The notes under the pieces are model-generated. The model worked only from the letters and a program-made list of their open reading frames with translations. It ran no database searches and had not been told where the DNA came from. DNA of 48,354 bases from Terriglobia bacterium (GTDB lineage: Bacteria > Acidobacteriota > Terriglobia > UBA7540): NCBI GenBank assembly GCA_020072655.1, contig JAIQGH010000017.1, forward strand, positions 1 to 48,354. Direction: 5' to 3'. The translations under genes and the position numbers were made by a program. Within the stretch, counting starts at the first letter, position 1. Every line of letters begins with the position of its first letter. Below are positions 30,479 to 42,958 of the stretch, piece by piece.

Positions 30479-30661
30479 ATGGCTAGGCCCAAGTCATTCC
30501 GCAATCCCACGCGCGTCAGCCTGACGCTGAATCGCGAGACGCTGGTCGTGGCGCGCCGGCGCGCTCGGCTCGTGCGGCGGTCGCTCTCGGAAATGGTTTC
30601 GGAAATTCTCGACGCCTATTTCCGCCGCAATGGACAGCCGCGCGCGAGGAGGCGGCCATGA
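30479..30661 (+). CDS. Small basic ribbon-helix-helix-like protein inside the dcw cluster
   Basis: This 60-residue, strongly basic protein (MARPKSFRNPTRVSLTLNRETLVVARRRARLVRRSLSEMVSEILDAYFRR) has the pattern of a ribbon-helix-helix DNA-binding domain. A short strand (RVSLTLN) is followed by two helices, the second starting SLSEMVSEIL. Its stop overlaps the murD ATG (ATGA), so it is co-translated with murD. It has its own promoter 15 bases upstream and no Shine-Dalgarno sequence. It is not one of the standard dcw genes. It may be an autoregulator of the murD-onward segment or an orphan antitoxin-like protein; no toxin is adjacent. The fold is inferred from sequence pattern only. Confidence 0.65.
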   Translation: MARPKSFRNPTRVSLTLNRETLVVARRRARLVRRSLSEMVSEILDAYFRRNGQPRARRRP

Positions 30662-32280
30662 CCGATGTGCGAGGCAAGCGCATCCTGGTCGTGGGCCTGG
30701 CCCGCACGGGCCGCGCCACCGCGAAGTGCCTGCAGCGCCACGGGGCGGAAGTGACGGTCACCGATTCCCGCCCGCCGTATGACCTGCGCGCGGATGTCGC
30801 CGAACTGCTGGCCCTCAAGATCGGCATGGAGCTCGGCCTGCACCGCGAAGCCACCTTCCTCGCCCAGGACCTGATTGTCGTCAGCCCGGGCGTTCTGCCG
30901 GAACTGCCGCAGCTTCAGGCGGCAAGGGCCAAGGGAATTCGCGTCGTTTCGGAAGTCGAGGTGGCAAGCTGGTTCCTGGAAGCCGACCTCCTGGGGGTCA
31001 CGGGCTCGAACGGCAAGACAACCACGACGGCGCTGCTGGGGAAGATGCTCGAGGCGTCCGGGTTCCAGACCTTTGTGGGCGGCAACATCGGCTTGCCGCT
31101 GATCGCCGCGGTCGACCAGGTCCCCAAAGATGCGAAGGTCGTGACCGAACTGAGCAGCTTTCAACTCGAAACCATCGAGACTTTCCGCCCGCGCGTGGCC
31201 GTGCTCCTGAACCTCACGCCCAACCATCTGGATCGCCACCCGACGCTCGAAGCTTATGTCGCGGCGAAGGCGCAGATTCTCCGCCATCAGACGCCGGATG
31301 ATTTCGCCGTGCTTAACGCCGATGACCCGGCGGTGATGAACTTGGCCCGAGAGACTGTCGCGCGGAAGATTCTCTTCAGCCGCACGAGGGACCTTCCCGA
31401 CGGCGTGTTCGTCGCTGACGGCCAAATCATCTTTCGCACCGGGAACCTGGAGCGGCCGCTCCTCGCCACGCGCGACATCGCGTTGCGGGGGGATTTCAAC
31501 GTTGAAAACGTCTTGGCGGCCGCCGCGGCCGCGTGCGTGGTGGGCGCGGACTTCGAAGCTATCGCGCGCGCCGTGCGGGAATTCCGGGCCGTCGAGCATC
31601 GGCTGGAGTTCGTGCGGGAAATGCGCGGCGTCGAGTTCTTCAATGACTCCAAGGCCACCAGCGTCGATGCCGCGGCCAAGGCGCTCACGGCATTCACGCG
31701 CGGCGTGCACGTGATTCTTGGCGGCAAGGACAAAGGCGCGCCTTACGCGCCGTTGCGGCCGCAGCTCAAGGAGCGCGCTCGCGCGGTCTATCTGATCGGC
31801 GCTGCGGCGAAGCGCATCGAGCGCGAGCTGATGGGCGCTATCGAGCTGATCCCCTGCGGGGACCTCGAAACGGCGATGCGCCGGGCCTTCGCTCGGGCCA
31901 TGGCGGGGGACACAGTTCTGCTTTCGCCTGCCTGCTCGAGCTTCGACCAGTTCCAGGACTACGAGCACCGCGGGCGCGTGTTCAAGGAAATTGTCGAAAA
32001 GTTGGCGGTGGAAGTGGAAGCCGCCGAAGGTGCGCGCCGGCTCGAGGAGGGCGCTCGCATCCTGGCACCCGCGGTCGCCGCGACGGTTGCCCCGGAGGCC
32101 CCCGCTTTGCCGGAGAGCGTAGCGCCGGGCGGAACTTGTCCCAACGACGTCGGGAGCCCGGCACCTGCCCCGATGAGTCGGGGCGCTACTAGTCCGGCGG
32201 ATGCAGCGCAGGAAGCCGTCCCGGCACGGGAGGCGCCGCCGCCAGTCGAGATTCAGCACCCCGAACGCGTTTACGTTTAG
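30658..32280 (+). CDS. murD: UDP-N-acetylmuramoylalanine-D-glutamate ligase MurD, with unusual C-terminal extension
   Basis: MurD adds D-glutamate to UDP-MurNAc-L-Ala. Conserved blocks are KRILVVGLARTGRATAKCL, VVSPGVLPELP, LLGVTGSNGKTTTTALLGKML, FVGGNIGLPLI, VTELSSFQLETIETFRPRVAVLLNLTPNHLDRHPT, FNVENVLAAAAAA, FFNDSKATSVDAAAKAL and LLSPACSSFDQFQDYEHRGRVFKEIV. The catalytic part ends near residue 460. Another 80 residues of alanine/proline/glutamate-rich tail follow up to a TAG at 32278-32280. The tail includes a GTAG-type palindrome (32167-32189). The frame stays open beyond the TAG for 96 codons of similar composition. The core enzyme should be active; the tail is atypical. Confidence 0.93.
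   Translation: MTDVRGKRILVVGLARTGRATAKCLQRHGAEVTVTDSRPPYDLRADVAELLALKIGMELGLHREATFLAQDLIVVSPGVLPELPQLQAARAKGIRVVSEVEVASWFLEADLLGVTGSNGKTTTTALLGKMLEASGFQTFVGGNIGLPLIAAVDQVPKDAKVVTELSSFQLETIETFRPRVAVLLNLTPNHLDRHPTLEAYVAAKAQILRHQTPDDFAVLNADDPAVMNLARETVARKILFSRTRDLPDGVFVADGQIIFRTGNLERPLLATRDIALRGDFNVENVLAAAAAACVVGADFEAIARAVREFRAVEHRLEFVREMRGVEFFNDSKATSVDAAAKALTAFTRGVHVILGGKDKGAPYAPLRPQLKERARAVYLIGAAAKRIERELMGAIELIPCGDLETAMRRAFARAMAGDTVLLSPACSSFDQFQDYEHRGRVFKEIVEKLAVEVEAAEGARRLEEGARILAPAVAATVAPEAPALPESVAPGGTCPNDVGSPAPAPMSRGATSPADAAQEAVPAREAPPPVEIQHPERVYV
32167..32189 (-). repeat. REP-like palindrome with GTAG head inside the murD 3' extension
   Basis: On the minus strand it reads GTAGC, GCCCCGA, a 4-base loop and TCGGGGC. 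The same plan (GTAG or GTAGC followed by a GC-rich hairpin) is seen at 41719, 41856, 42981 and 43044, and is the hallmark of REP elements mobilised by RAYT transposases. In the murD frame it encodes PMSRGAT. Confidence 0.7.
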
Positions 32281-32568
32281 GAAGTGGGCGCGGAAGAGAC
32301 TGTCTATGCTGACGCGGATGTGCTTGCGGAACCTCCTGCGGACCGCGATGTCGAAGCGGTGACCCTCGAAGCTCTGCCCGCGAGCGAGCCGGTCGAGGAC
32401 GAAGCTCTGCCGTTTGAAGTGCGCGACGGGGCACGCTCACGGTCGTCAGTCTCGGAGGGAGAAGCAGCGGCCACGGGAGACGCCAAGGAAGACTCGCCAG
32501 CAGAGAAACCTTCCCAGGAGCCGGGGCGTGACGCCGGGAAGCGGCAGGCACGGCTCCCCGGGCTGTAA
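32281..32568 (+). other. In-frame open continuation of murD after an amber codon
   Basis: The murD frame continues past the TAG at 32278-32280 for 96 codons to a stop just before ftsW. The composition (EVGAEETVYADADVLAEPPADRD and onward, rich in Glu, Asp, Ala, Pro) matches the murD tail upstream, which ends HPERVYV. It may be a former part of a longer MurD tail cut off by a nonsense mutation, a read-through extension, or a separate small gene starting at GTG 32284, although AGGAA lies too close to that GTG to act as a normal ribosome binding site. No known domain is visible. Confidence 0.5.
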
Positions 32569-37329: not shown

Positions 37330-37410
37330 CAGTCGAAGGTCGAAAGCCGAAAGCGAGCACGATTGTGCTTCTGCTCTGGACTGTTTACCTTCGACTGCCG
37401 ACTTTTGACT
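37330..37410. repeat. Heptad arms and hairpin between murB and ftsQ
   Basis: The first arm has heptads GTCGAAG, GTCGAAA, GCCGAAA. CAGTCGAAGGT (37330-37340) pairs perfectly with ACCTTCGACTG (37387-37397). A small inner hairpin, AGCAC-gatt-GTGCT (37356-37369), sits in the loop. The second arm ends just before the ftsQ ATG. Confidence 0.8.
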
Positions 37411-37416
37411 AAGGGA

Positions 37417-38358
37417 ATGGCCAGCGGAGAACCCGACGACATTGCGCTGCCGACGGAACTGGATGCCGATGAGGAATCCCCCTATCGGCGTCGCCAGCGG
37501 CCCGTGTCGGCGCGGGGCAGCCGGGCGGGAGGATTTCGGTTCTTCCTGAAGTGGGGCCTGGTCGCGGCCGTGGTTTTGTCGGCGATGGGCTATGCCGGAT
37601 ACTCGGTGGCGGTGTTCATGCTCAGCTCGCCGAGGTTCCTGCTGACGACCTCAAATGATGTGATCGTGACGGGCAACAACTATGTTTCCGTTGAGGAAGT
37701 CACCAGCATGCTGGGCTTGGCGCGATCGGTGAAGCCGGCTTATGGGCTCAACATCTTGCGCCTTCCGCTCGAGGAGAAGAAGAAGCAAGTGGAGTCGATT
37801 GCTTGGGTGCGCTCGGCGACGCTGACGCGGGTATATCCGAACCGCCTGGCCGTGCGCCTGGTGGAACGCACCCCGATCGCTTTCGTGAACATCGACGGAC
37901 GGCTGAAGCTGGTGGACGGCGACGGCGTCGTGCTCGACAAGCCCGAGCGGTCGTCCTTCGATTTCCCTGTGCTCACGGGGCTCGGCTCCGCCAACGGTCA
38001 GGCGGAGCGGGTGGCGCGGCTGGCCCTTTACGAGGCGTTCCTGCGCGAGATCGCCAGTGAAATCTCCGGCTCGGGCTGGATCGTTTCGGAGGTGGACCTG
38101 AGCGACGGCGACGACCTCAAGGCCATGCTGGTCGAAGGGCGCGAAACTTTGCAGGTGCACTTCGGCCACGAAAGCTTCGAGGAGCGTTTCCACAATTTCC
38201 TGACATTGCTTCCCGCGGTCCGCCACAATCATGGCAGAATTGACTCCATCGACCTGCGCTTCCGGAATCAGATCGTCGTGAACCCGCAGCCCGCCGATGA
38301 GACGAGCACGGGAGGCGGGACGAATCATTCCCTCGGCTCGACGGCGCAGGAGAATTAG
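37417..38358 (+). CDS. ftsQ: Cell division protein FtsQ
   Basis: FtsQ connects early and late division proteins. The product is about 313 residues from ATG 37417. There is an acidic and arginine-rich cytoplasmic N-terminus, then one membrane segment at about residues 46-68 (FFLKWGLVAAVVLSAMGYAGYSVAVFML). The POTRA domain follows (NDVIVTGNNYVSVEEVTSMLGL ... GLNILRLPLEEKKKQVESIAWVRSATLTRVYPNRLAVRLVERTPIAFVN). The FtsQ domain after it contains RLKLVDGDGVVLDKP and IDSIDLRFRNQIVVNP. The ATG is preceded by AAGGG. The longer start at 37363 lies in the repeat hairpin and is unlikely. ftsA starts eight bases after the stop. Confidence 0.92.
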   Translation: MASGEPDDIALPTELDADEESPYRRRQRPVSARGSRAGGFRFFLKWGLVAAVVLSAMGYAGYSVAVFMLSSPRFLLTTSNDVIVTGNNYVSVEEVTSMLGLARSVKPAYGLNILRLPLEEKKKQVESIAWVRSATLTRVYPNRLAVRLVERTPIAFVNIDGRLKLVDGDGVVLDKPERSSFDFPVLTGLGSANGQAERVARLALYEAFLREIASEISGSGWIVSEVDLSDGDDLKAMLVEGRETLQVHFGHESFEERFHNFLTLLPAVRHNHGRIDSIDLRFRNQIVVNPQPADETSTGGGTNHSLGSTAQEN

Positions 38359-38365
38359 GACAGCC

Positions 38366-39409
38366 TTGGCGCGCAAGGATCAATACATTTTCGGGCTGGA
38401 TCTCGGCACCACCAAGACCTGCGCGCTCGCCTGCCAGCGCAACAACGAGGGGAAGCTGGAAGTGGCGGGCCTGGGCGTGGCGGAATCGCGCGGCTGGCGC
38501 AAGGGGGTGATCGTCAACCTCAACTCGGCCATGCTGGCCATTAAGAAGGCGGTCGAAGCCGCCGAGGCCGAATCCAAGGCGTCCTTTGAATGGGCCTACC
38601 TGGGGGTGGGAGGAACGCACATCCGAGGCGTGAACTCGCGCGGCGCGCTCAGCCTCGGCGCCCACACCCGCGAGGTCACGTTTGAAGACAAGATCAAGGC
38701 CTTCCAGATCGCCAAGGGTATTACGCTGCCTCCCGACCGCGAACTGATCGACGCCCTGCGGCAGGAGTATTTGCTCGACTCGCAGAATGGCATTCGCGAC
38801 CCGCTGGGGATGACGGGGAAGACCCTGGAGGTGAATGTTCACCTGGTCACCGCCGCCCGGACGGCCTGGCAGAGCATCGTGACGGCGGCGAATAGTGCCG
38901 GAATCAAGGTCCCCGACAGCGGGACCATCTTCGAGCCGCTGGCCTCGGCCTGGGCCTGCGTGAGCGAAGACGAGCGCGAGCTGGGCGTGGCGCTGCTGGA
39001 TATCGGCGGAGGATCGTCCGAGCTGATCGTTTTCCACGAAGGGGCGGTGCGGTATTCCTCGGTGCTGGCCATCGCCGGCGAGCACTTCACGAACGAGCTC
39101 GTGGAACTCCTGCAGCAAGACCTCGCGCGCTTCGGCATGGACAAGCAACTCGGCGCGGGGCTCGTCCTCACCGGCGGTGGGGCCAAGCTGGGCGGCCTCC
39201 TGCCCTTGACCGAGCAGGCGCTCGGCATGCCGGTGCGGCTGGGACGGCCCTCGGGTCTTGAGAAAATGGGCAGTATTCTTTCCGACCCTGTCTACGCAAC
39301 CGTCGTGGGCTTGGTCACGTATGGATATCGTCTGCGGCTTCTTCAGGAGTCAAACGAGAAAGGTTGGTGGGGCAGACTCTGGGGTGGCCTGCGAGGCAAG
39401 AACAGCTAG
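38366..39409 (+). CDS. ftsA: Cell division protein FtsA, lacking an internal block of about 60 residues
   Basis: FtsA is the actin-like membrane tether of FtsZ. The TTG at 38366 gives LARKDQYIFGLDLGTTKTCALAC (phosphate 1). Then come the 1C subdomain (AYLGVGGTHIRGVNSRGAL), ALLDIGGGSSELIVFHEGAVRYSSVLAIAGEHFTN (phosphate 2), and GAGLVLTGGGAKLGGLLPLTEQAL (adenosine motif). After GEHFTN the family normally has about 60 residues (a DIAxGLxTPxxxAExIKxxxGC stretch to PRxxEL). Here ELVELLQQDLARFG follows at once, so that block is missing in frame near 39085-39105. The length is 347 instead of about 400-420. The C-terminal end GWWGRLWGGLRG is the expected amphipathic membrane helix. An intact FtsA is expected in a cluster like this, so an assembly error is possible. 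Confidence 0.85.
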   Translation: MARKDQYIFGLDLGTTKTCALACQRNNEGKLEVAGLGVAESRGWRKGVIVNLNSAMLAIKKAVEAAEAESKASFEWAYLGVGGTHIRGVNSRGALSLGAHTREVTFEDKIKAFQIAKGITLPPDRELIDALRQEYLLDSQNGIRDPLGMTGKTLEVNVHLVTAARTAWQSIVTAANSAGIKVPDSGTIFEPLASAWACVSEDERELGVALLDIGGGSSELIVFHEGAVRYSSVLAIAGEHFTNELVELLQQDLARFGMDKQLGAGLVLTGGGAKLGGLLPLTEQALGMPVRLGRPSGLEKMGSILSDPVYATVVGLVTYGYRLRLLQESNEKGWWGRLWGGLRGKNS

Positions 39410-39537: not shown

Positions 39538-40716
39538 ATGGCAGCCGATGAAGTCAATGAGAGCTTGCGGGTGGATTTCTCCGAGGAGTTGCGCCACGGC
39601 GCCAAGATCAAGGTGATCGGCGTGGGAGGAGGCGGCGGCAACGCGGTCAACCGCATGATCTCCGCCAAGCTGGAAGGCGTGGAGTTCATGGTGGCCAATA
39701 CCGATGTGCAGGCCCTCCGCGCCTCGCAGGCGCCGGTGAAGATCCAGCTCGGGGCGAAGCTGACCAAAGGATTGGGGGCGGGCGCGAACCCTGACATCGG
39801 CCGCCGCGCCGCGTTGGAGGACACGGAAAAGCTCATCGACGCCATGGAAGGGGCGGACATGGTGTTTGTCACGGCGGGCTTGGGCGGGGGCACCGGCACG
39901 GGAGGCGCGCCCATTGTGGCGAGCCTCGCCCGTGAACTGGGTTCGCTCACGGTCGCCGTTGTGACCAAACCGTTCGCTTTCGAAGGCCGACGGCGGATGC
40001 AGCAGGCGGAGCAAGGATTGGCGGAGCTGAGCGAAGCCGTGGATACCGTGATCTGCATCCCCAACGAGCGCCTGATGCAGTACGTGGACAAGGGCACGAG
40101 CTTCTTCGAGGCCTTCCGCATCGCCGATGATATTCTCCGCCAGGGCGTGCAGGGCATTTCCGACATCATCACCATCACGGGCATCATCAACCGCGACTTC
40201 GCCGACATCAAAACGATTATGGAGGGCATGGGTTACGCGGTGATGGGCACGGCGGAGGGCACCGGCGAGAATCGCGCCGTCGATGCCGTCACTCGTGCCA
40301 TCGCCAGCCCCTTGCTCGAGGACGCCACGATTAACGGCGCGCAGGGCATCCTGCTCAACATTACCGGGTCGAGCAAGCTCACCATGTACGAGGTCCACGA
40401 GGCCTCGACCATCGTTCAGAAAGCGGCGGCAGAAAACGCCAACATCATCTTCGGCGCGGTCCACAACGAGGCGATGAAGGACGCCGTGCGCGTGACCGTG
40501 ATCGCCACGGGCATCAAGGCCGAGAAGATTGGCCTCAAGACGCGGGGCGTGGTTTCGCCCGCCCTCCGCTCGGCCCAGCAGAGCGTCAAGAACGTTCTGC
40601 TCAGGAAGGAGAGGTTGCCGATTGAGGCTCCTGTGCCGCGCGTCACCGCGGAAATTCCCGAGGACGATTTGGACGTCCCGGCCTTCATTCGCCGCCGCAA
40701 GCCGGAAGTGAAGTAG
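39538..40716 (+). CDS. ftsZ: Cell division GTPase FtsZ
   Basis: FtsZ is the tubulin-like protein that forms the division ring. The 392 residues include [18 protein letters not shown] (first G loop), [18 protein letters not shown] (tubulin signature, about residues 113-125), [36 protein letters not shown] (T7 synergy loop), and [21 protein letters not shown] short linker leads to the C-terminal peptide [15 protein letters not shown], which is the binding site for FtsA and other partners. GGGGGAGAGC precedes the ATG. It is the last dcw gene and is followed by a GTAG-headed hairpin that may end transcription. Confidence 0.97.
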
Positions 40717-42018: not shown

Positions 42019-42958
42019 ATGAAGATTCAAGCGTATGCTGCGCACGGTCCGGGTAGGGCCCTCGAGCCCTTCGAGTACGAACCGCAGCCGCCGGAACTCG
42101 AACCCCAGCAGGTGGAGATCGCTATCTCCCATTGCGGGATCTGCCACAGCGACCACCGCGACGCGGCTTGGCTCCGCCGTCAAGAACTTCCGGGAAGGCC
42201 AGCGCGTCGGAGTGGGCTGGGAGGCGGGCTCCTGCGGTGAGTGCGATTATTGCCTGCATGGTGAGGAAAATGTCTGCCTGAGCGCGAGAGGTACCTGCAC
42301 GCACGGCTACGGCGGTTATGCCAGCGCGATCCGGGTCGACCGCCGTTTCGTGTTTTCCATTCCCGAGAGCTTGGATTCCGAGCGCGCCGCTCCACTGCTG
42401 TGCGGCGGCGTCACGGTCTATTCGCCGCTCGCGCAGCACGTGCGGCCCGCTATGCGAGTCGGCGTCATCGGGCTGGGAGGTCTCGGGCACCTGGCGGTCC
42501 AGTTTGCGCACGCCTTCGGGTGCGAGGTCACGGTTTTCTCGACTTCGCCAGGTAAGGAGACCGAGGCTCGCCGCTTCGGGGCGCACCACTTCATCAATAC
42601 CCGCGATGCCGGGGCGATGGAGAAAGTCGCGAACACGTTCCACTTCATCCTTTCGACCGTGTCGGGCGACGTGAATTGGGGGGATTACCTGAAGGCGCTC
42701 CGACCAAAGGGCAGGCTCGGCATGGTCGGCGCCCCCGCGAGCGATATCCGCCTGCCGGCTTTTCCGCTGATCATCGGCCATCGCGCGGTGAGCGGGAGCC
42801 CCATCGGCAGCCCGTCCGAGATCCGTGAGATGCTGGAGTTCTCCGCCCGCAACGGCGTTCAGCCGATAACGGAACGTTTTCCCATGGCGCAAGTGAACGC
42901 GGCCCTAGATCGCCTCCGGTCCAACCAGGCCCGCTATCGCATTGTGTTGGTGAACTGA
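42019..42958 (+). pseudogene. Zinc-dependent alcohol dehydrogenase (YahK/CAD-like), broken by internal deletion and frameshift
   Basis: The family reduces aldehydes with NADPH. The ATG at 42019 follows GAGGAGG and gives MKIQAYAAHGPGRALEPFEYE and then the catalytic zinc motif CGICHSD. The frame shifts near 42148-42175. The rest, in another frame, reads RLGSAVKNFREGQRVGVGWEAG, the structural zinc motif CGECDYCLHGEENVC, the NADP-binding VGVIGLGGLGHLAVQFAHAFGCEVTVFSTS, and continues to the normal end RYRIVLVN. About 25 residues between HSD and the VG-x-x-V segment, including the PxxPGHE zinc-ligand motif, are absent. It is therefore a deletion with a frameshift and the gene cannot give a working enzyme as it stands. 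An assembly error is possible. Confidence 0.8.

Follow-up and report, generated by a model that had tools for sequence, protein, structure and literature searches.

A 60-residue block missing from FtsA in a draft Terriglobia genome is probably a local assembly error

Subdomain IIB of the actin fold contributes to the nucleotide cleft. In the cell division protein FtsA, the same subdomain (2B) carries the site for the C-terminal peptide of FtsZ, near R286 (PMC9098913; also PMC8998562, PMC5727935), and FtsA filaments are built through IIA-IIB contacts (PMC7613929). Draft genomes add a difficulty of their own, as local spots of unsupported or incorrect consensus have been documented for scaffolding metagenome assemblers (PMC7111523). 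Here, ftsA was analyzed in a window of 48,354 nucleotides, the whole stretch of DNA under study, from a Terriglobia bacterium. The gene (38366..39409, forward strand) has a TTG start, 347 codons and a stop at 39407-39409, and lies in the dcw cluster between ftsQ (37363..38358, forward strand) and ftsZ (39538..40716, forward strand). This position and a C-terminal amphipathic tail are shared with described FtsA proteins (TIGR01174). The original prediction held that this FtsA lacks about 60 residues between its phosphate-2 and adenosine motifs, beside complete ftsQ and ftsZ genes. Both neighbors are indeed intact, and the size and position of the loss were correct: exactly 60 codons (180 nt) are absent at 39094..39095, between AAC (N243, 39092-39094) and GAG (E244, 39095-39097), and the protein runs directly from VLAIAGEHFTN243 to E244LVELLQQDL.

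Alignment with the FtsAs of the same-genus genome G001 (Terriglobia bacterium SRVP_28, ftsA record JAIQGB010000260.1; loci L031/L035), of G008 and G018, and of approximately 20 other members of the family revealed a single internal gap of exactly 60 residues (180 nt), in frame, with the protein co-linear with its relatives and intact on both sides. The reading frame is open and continuous across the junction, whose placement is ambiguous by a few bases owing to a GA common to both flanks. All other parts of FtsA (TIGR01174; PF14450 FtsA, PF02491 SHS2_FTSA) are the same in order and sequence. The phosphate-1 (DLGTTK), phosphate-2 (DIGGGSSEL) and adenosine (LTGGGAKLGG) motifs are present, as is the SHS2/1C domain that characterizes FtsA among actins (PF02491, residues 83-162, E 1.1e-22). 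The C-terminal amphipathic tail, KGWWGRLWGGLRGK, is likewise retained, and its helix, KGWWGRLWGGLRGKNS, aligns to the relatives and is predicted to target the membrane. The TIGR01174 score of 273.3 bits exceeds the cut-off of 175.85, yet the match is split into two stretches, whereas an intact relative scores 358.3 bits in one. The actin-like core is incomplete here, subdomain IIB being interrupted by the 60-residue gap. AlphaFold2 models built from only four input sequences gave a mean pLDDT of 45 for this protein and 59 for an intact FtsA, both too low for the models to be usable.

Aligned to structures 7q6d (E. coli), 7q6g and 7q6f, the missing block corresponds to residues ~242-302 of E. 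coli FtsA, beginning with the helix that follows phosphate-2 and ending shortly past EPR, and covers most of subdomain IIB. The window protein differs from described FtsA in having neither the R286 region nor the site for the FtsZ tail. Assigning the lost region to the nucleotide-binding subdomain, as had been done from the sequence, was incomplete, as the region also bears the FtsZ C-terminal-peptide site (PMC9098913). The accompanying statement that all adjacent mur genes are complete was not quite accurate, since murD (30487-32280) ends at a nonsense codon (32278-32280) within its extended C-terminal tail, which is rich in Pro, Glu and Ala. At this position Tyr is found in G008 and G018, and beyond the stop the window frame stays open to about 32567 with similarity to both (EVGAEETVYADADVL...ALPFEVR...RLPGL). 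MurD proteins of this group (window 30679-32567, L036, L037) have a C-terminal extension of ~200 residues with the short conserved motifs VYxYE and ALPFEVR.

The block is a well-conserved part of FtsA in the family. All 24 aligned family sequences carry it, with at most one gap residue in any relative, and it is also present in the FtsA of G001, the sole same-genus genome compared. Columns conserved at 90% or more make up 32 of its 60 positions; elsewhere in the protein the corresponding figure is 119 of 341. FtsA was found in 59 of 61 genomes searched and in 387 of 399 genomes of the class. In the scan of 399 genomes, among the matches listed, a single uninterrupted match to the window FtsA occurred only in the window's own genome, while intact relatives split into two pieces at residues ~250/~239, around the block. 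The few single-partial-match genomes that were inspected look cut by contig ends or by broken frames. Absence of the block throughout the clade, which the original prediction had named as one result that would overturn it, was checked and rejected because the relatives carry the block. We also searched the 4.36-Mb assembly for the block and for a second ftsA; neither was found, ftsA is single copy, and relocation of the block or its supply by another ftsA was rejected. As far as sampled, the loss is thus peculiar to this assembly and does not characterize the clade.

Comparable losses occur in other genes of the same assembly. Approximately 0.95 Mb of it was compared with approximately 0.56 Mb of G001, giving 74 matched genes; the many DNA-level gaps that fell between genes or at gene ends were left out of the count. 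Clean internal losses on this assembly's side affected 4 of the 74 genes, ftsA included (95% CI 1.5-13%), ranging from 68 to 183 nt in unrelated, conserved genes. An ornithine carbamoyltransferase (locus L106, 18655-19425 on its own contig C37, minus strand) has lost 183 nt (61 residues) in frame, including the carbamoyl-phosphate motif SLRTRV; outside the gap it retains 94% amino-acid identity, and no other copy was found in the assembly, only a 30%-identical relative. A 2-oxoacid:ferredoxin oxidoreductase alpha/beta fusion (L101, 2847-5033 on its own contig C32, minus strand), the sole copy, has an in-frame loss of 150 nt, which removes 50 residues close to its C-terminus that five other genomes retain; both enzymes were named by sequence motifs and not by a family scan. 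The fourth gene, a zinc alcohol dehydrogenase (42023-42958), sits in the same window 3 kb downstream of ftsA and lacks 68 nt relative to G001 at 42154..42155 (forward strand), with the frame shifted after HSD. Three of the four losses are thus in frame, and at least three of four would be expected by chance with a probability of about 0.11. Fewer were seen on the G001 side: a gap of 26 residues and a 211-nt difference whose direction is uncertain. Given four losses in 74 genes, one of them frame-breaking, it is unlikely that all four are adaptive. Such clean losses in unrelated conserved genes suggest an assembly defect over a newly evolved division protein.

The junctions themselves narrow the possible sources of error. 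They are blunt, with 0-3 nt common to the flanks, in keeping with mis-joins; no long repeats were found at the loss junctions, and repeat-mediated collapse at ftsA was rejected on this ground. Against an assembly error, however, speaks that de Bruijn assemblers join sequences through a shared k-mer, which the ftsA junction does not offer; an error would have to have arisen in scaffolding or gap closing, or from chimeric molecules. The assembly comprises 209 contigs totaling 4.36 Mb, with quality figures of 96% completeness and 1% contamination. Its N-filled joins of 10 and 48 nt and its contigs down to ~4 kb indicate that it was scaffolded. The pattern resembles the errors documented in scaffolded metagenome-assembled genomes, which are likewise local spots or joins, several per genome, leaving genes incomplete or shifted (PMC7111523), the difference being that here they are recognized by comparison with relatives and not by read mapping.

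Divergence also changes at the junctions. Nucleotide identity to G001 drops at the ftsA junction from 0.85 to about 0.72 (85.6% over the 5' part, 38366..39094, and about 73% over the 3' part, 39095..39409), and within the 5' part the SRVP_28 protein is 88-90% identical to the window FtsA. At codons for identical residues, synonymous differences number 46 of 81 in the 3' part and 68 of 216 in the 5' part (Fisher p 9e-5), a contrast not usually seen when other, comparably distant relatives are paired. At the ornithine carbamoyltransferase junction, identity rises from about 0.82 to 0.93, and the ~70 bases past it are identical to G001. Acquisition of the 3' part from a distant ftsA by horizontal transfer was rejected as the main cause, as this part still clusters with G001 (support 0.915), albeit with a long branch; ftsA may nevertheless be a mosaic of strains on a more local scale. 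The steps in identity at both genes could arise from the joining of pieces from different strains. Taken together, the identity steps, the synonymous contrast and the losses look like the products of mis-joined pieces, possibly from different strains.

From the clean loss, the block in relatives and the similar losses elsewhere, all of which are observed, we infer that assembly and not mutation was the cause: the 180-nt loss in ftsA is probably a sequence error, a local mis-join in a scaffolded draft assembly. Such a mis-join during draft genome assembly would have dropped the 180 nt, perhaps where pieces of two related strains were joined across an unassembled stretch, and the organism itself most probably has an ftsA that retains the IIB coding sequence. 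The original prediction had regarded sequence error as a serious alternative to a remarkable natural loss; the similar losses on other contigs now make error the likelier of the two, and the other clean losses in the assembly do not favor a natural loss in the organism. Besides the missing shared k-mer, two observations count against a mis-join: the 180 nt absent from ftsA preserve the frame exactly, two of the other three losses also keeping theirs, and amino-acid change in ftsA is raised, which would not be predicted from an assembly error by itself. Against G001, this lineage has 26 amino-acid changes in ftsA versus 9 (p 0.006; 21 versus 8 with another outgroup), with comparable synonymous changes (36 versus 43), and ftsQ (37363-38358) shows 53 versus 27 in G008 (p 0.005) with equal synonymous changes; these rate statistics are modest and come from a handful of tests. 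No such acceleration is seen on this lineage in ftsZ (10 versus 15) or in most mur genes. The family-invariant FtsA positions changed on this branch include A70S, S164A and G237A.

The in-frame losses and the fast change of ftsA and ftsQ keep a real, perhaps recent, deletion as the chief rival to the mis-join, albeit an unlikely one. The sampled strain would then carry the in-frame deletion as a fixed or minority allele, with FtsA dead or working poorly, either in a lineage that is losing genes or in sampled cells with recent harmful deletions. The roughly threefold rise in ftsA amino-acid changes on this branch, some at family-invariant positions, agrees with this, as do the losses in other genes, the nonsense codon in the murD tail and the junctions of short microhomology, which are compatible with genuine deletions. 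However, synonymous changes dominate ftsA on this branch relative to the available sites, and pairwise dN/dS is far below 1, indicating that selection has acted on the gene through almost its entire history; moreover, the remainder of the ftsA frame is open, ornithine carbamoyltransferase shows strong conservation on either side of its gap, and the gutting of 4 of 74 conserved genes is implausible for a healthy free-living soil bacterium. In addition, ftsA is expected to be essential in this organism. Neither SepF nor ZipA was found in this genome or in 20 relatives in searches whose positive controls worked, and either protein as a substitute anchor was rejected accordingly. The FtsZ of the window retains its conserved C-terminal peptide, the FtsA-binding tail. 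With a single FtsA, no SepF or ZipA and this tail retained, genuinely losing IIB would be expected to have crippling effects.

Ranked least likely of these three, and indeed very unlikely, is an evolved, functional FtsA without IIB, which would keep its anchor and its 1C and 2A subdomains, bind FtsZ through another surface or anchor, and have relaxed or lost nucleotide binding. The exact in-frame loss would fit, together with the retained amphipathic tail, 1C domain, and phosphate and adenosine motifs, and the faster evolution of ftsA and ftsQ, but not of ftsZ or most mur genes, could reflect compensation. Nevertheless, no other genome in the class sample shows the loss among the matches listed, unrelated genes have the same kind of loss, and an alternative anchor of known kind was not found. 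With IIB absent and neither another FtsA nor SepF or ZipA present, a healthy cell would need an unknown way of holding its Z-ring, and a working FtsA without subdomain IIB is hard to credit. We accordingly give little credence to a bacterium whose FtsA works without IIB and whose FtsZ is anchored without the FtsA-FtsZ tail contact, SepF or ZipA. That another locus supplies the block, to be joined in later through a split gene or an intron-like or trans arrangement, has a negligible chance; the exactness of the junction is all that speaks for it, while the 4.36-Mb assembly holds no trace of the block and one open frame spans the junction.

If the loss were real, the FtsZ-binding wall of FtsA would be dispensable and an unknown Z-ring anchor would be indicated. 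Should it instead be a mis-join, the likelier case, caution is called for, because the clean and often in-frame losses that this assembly has in core genes pass ordinary quality checks and may be mistaken for evolution.
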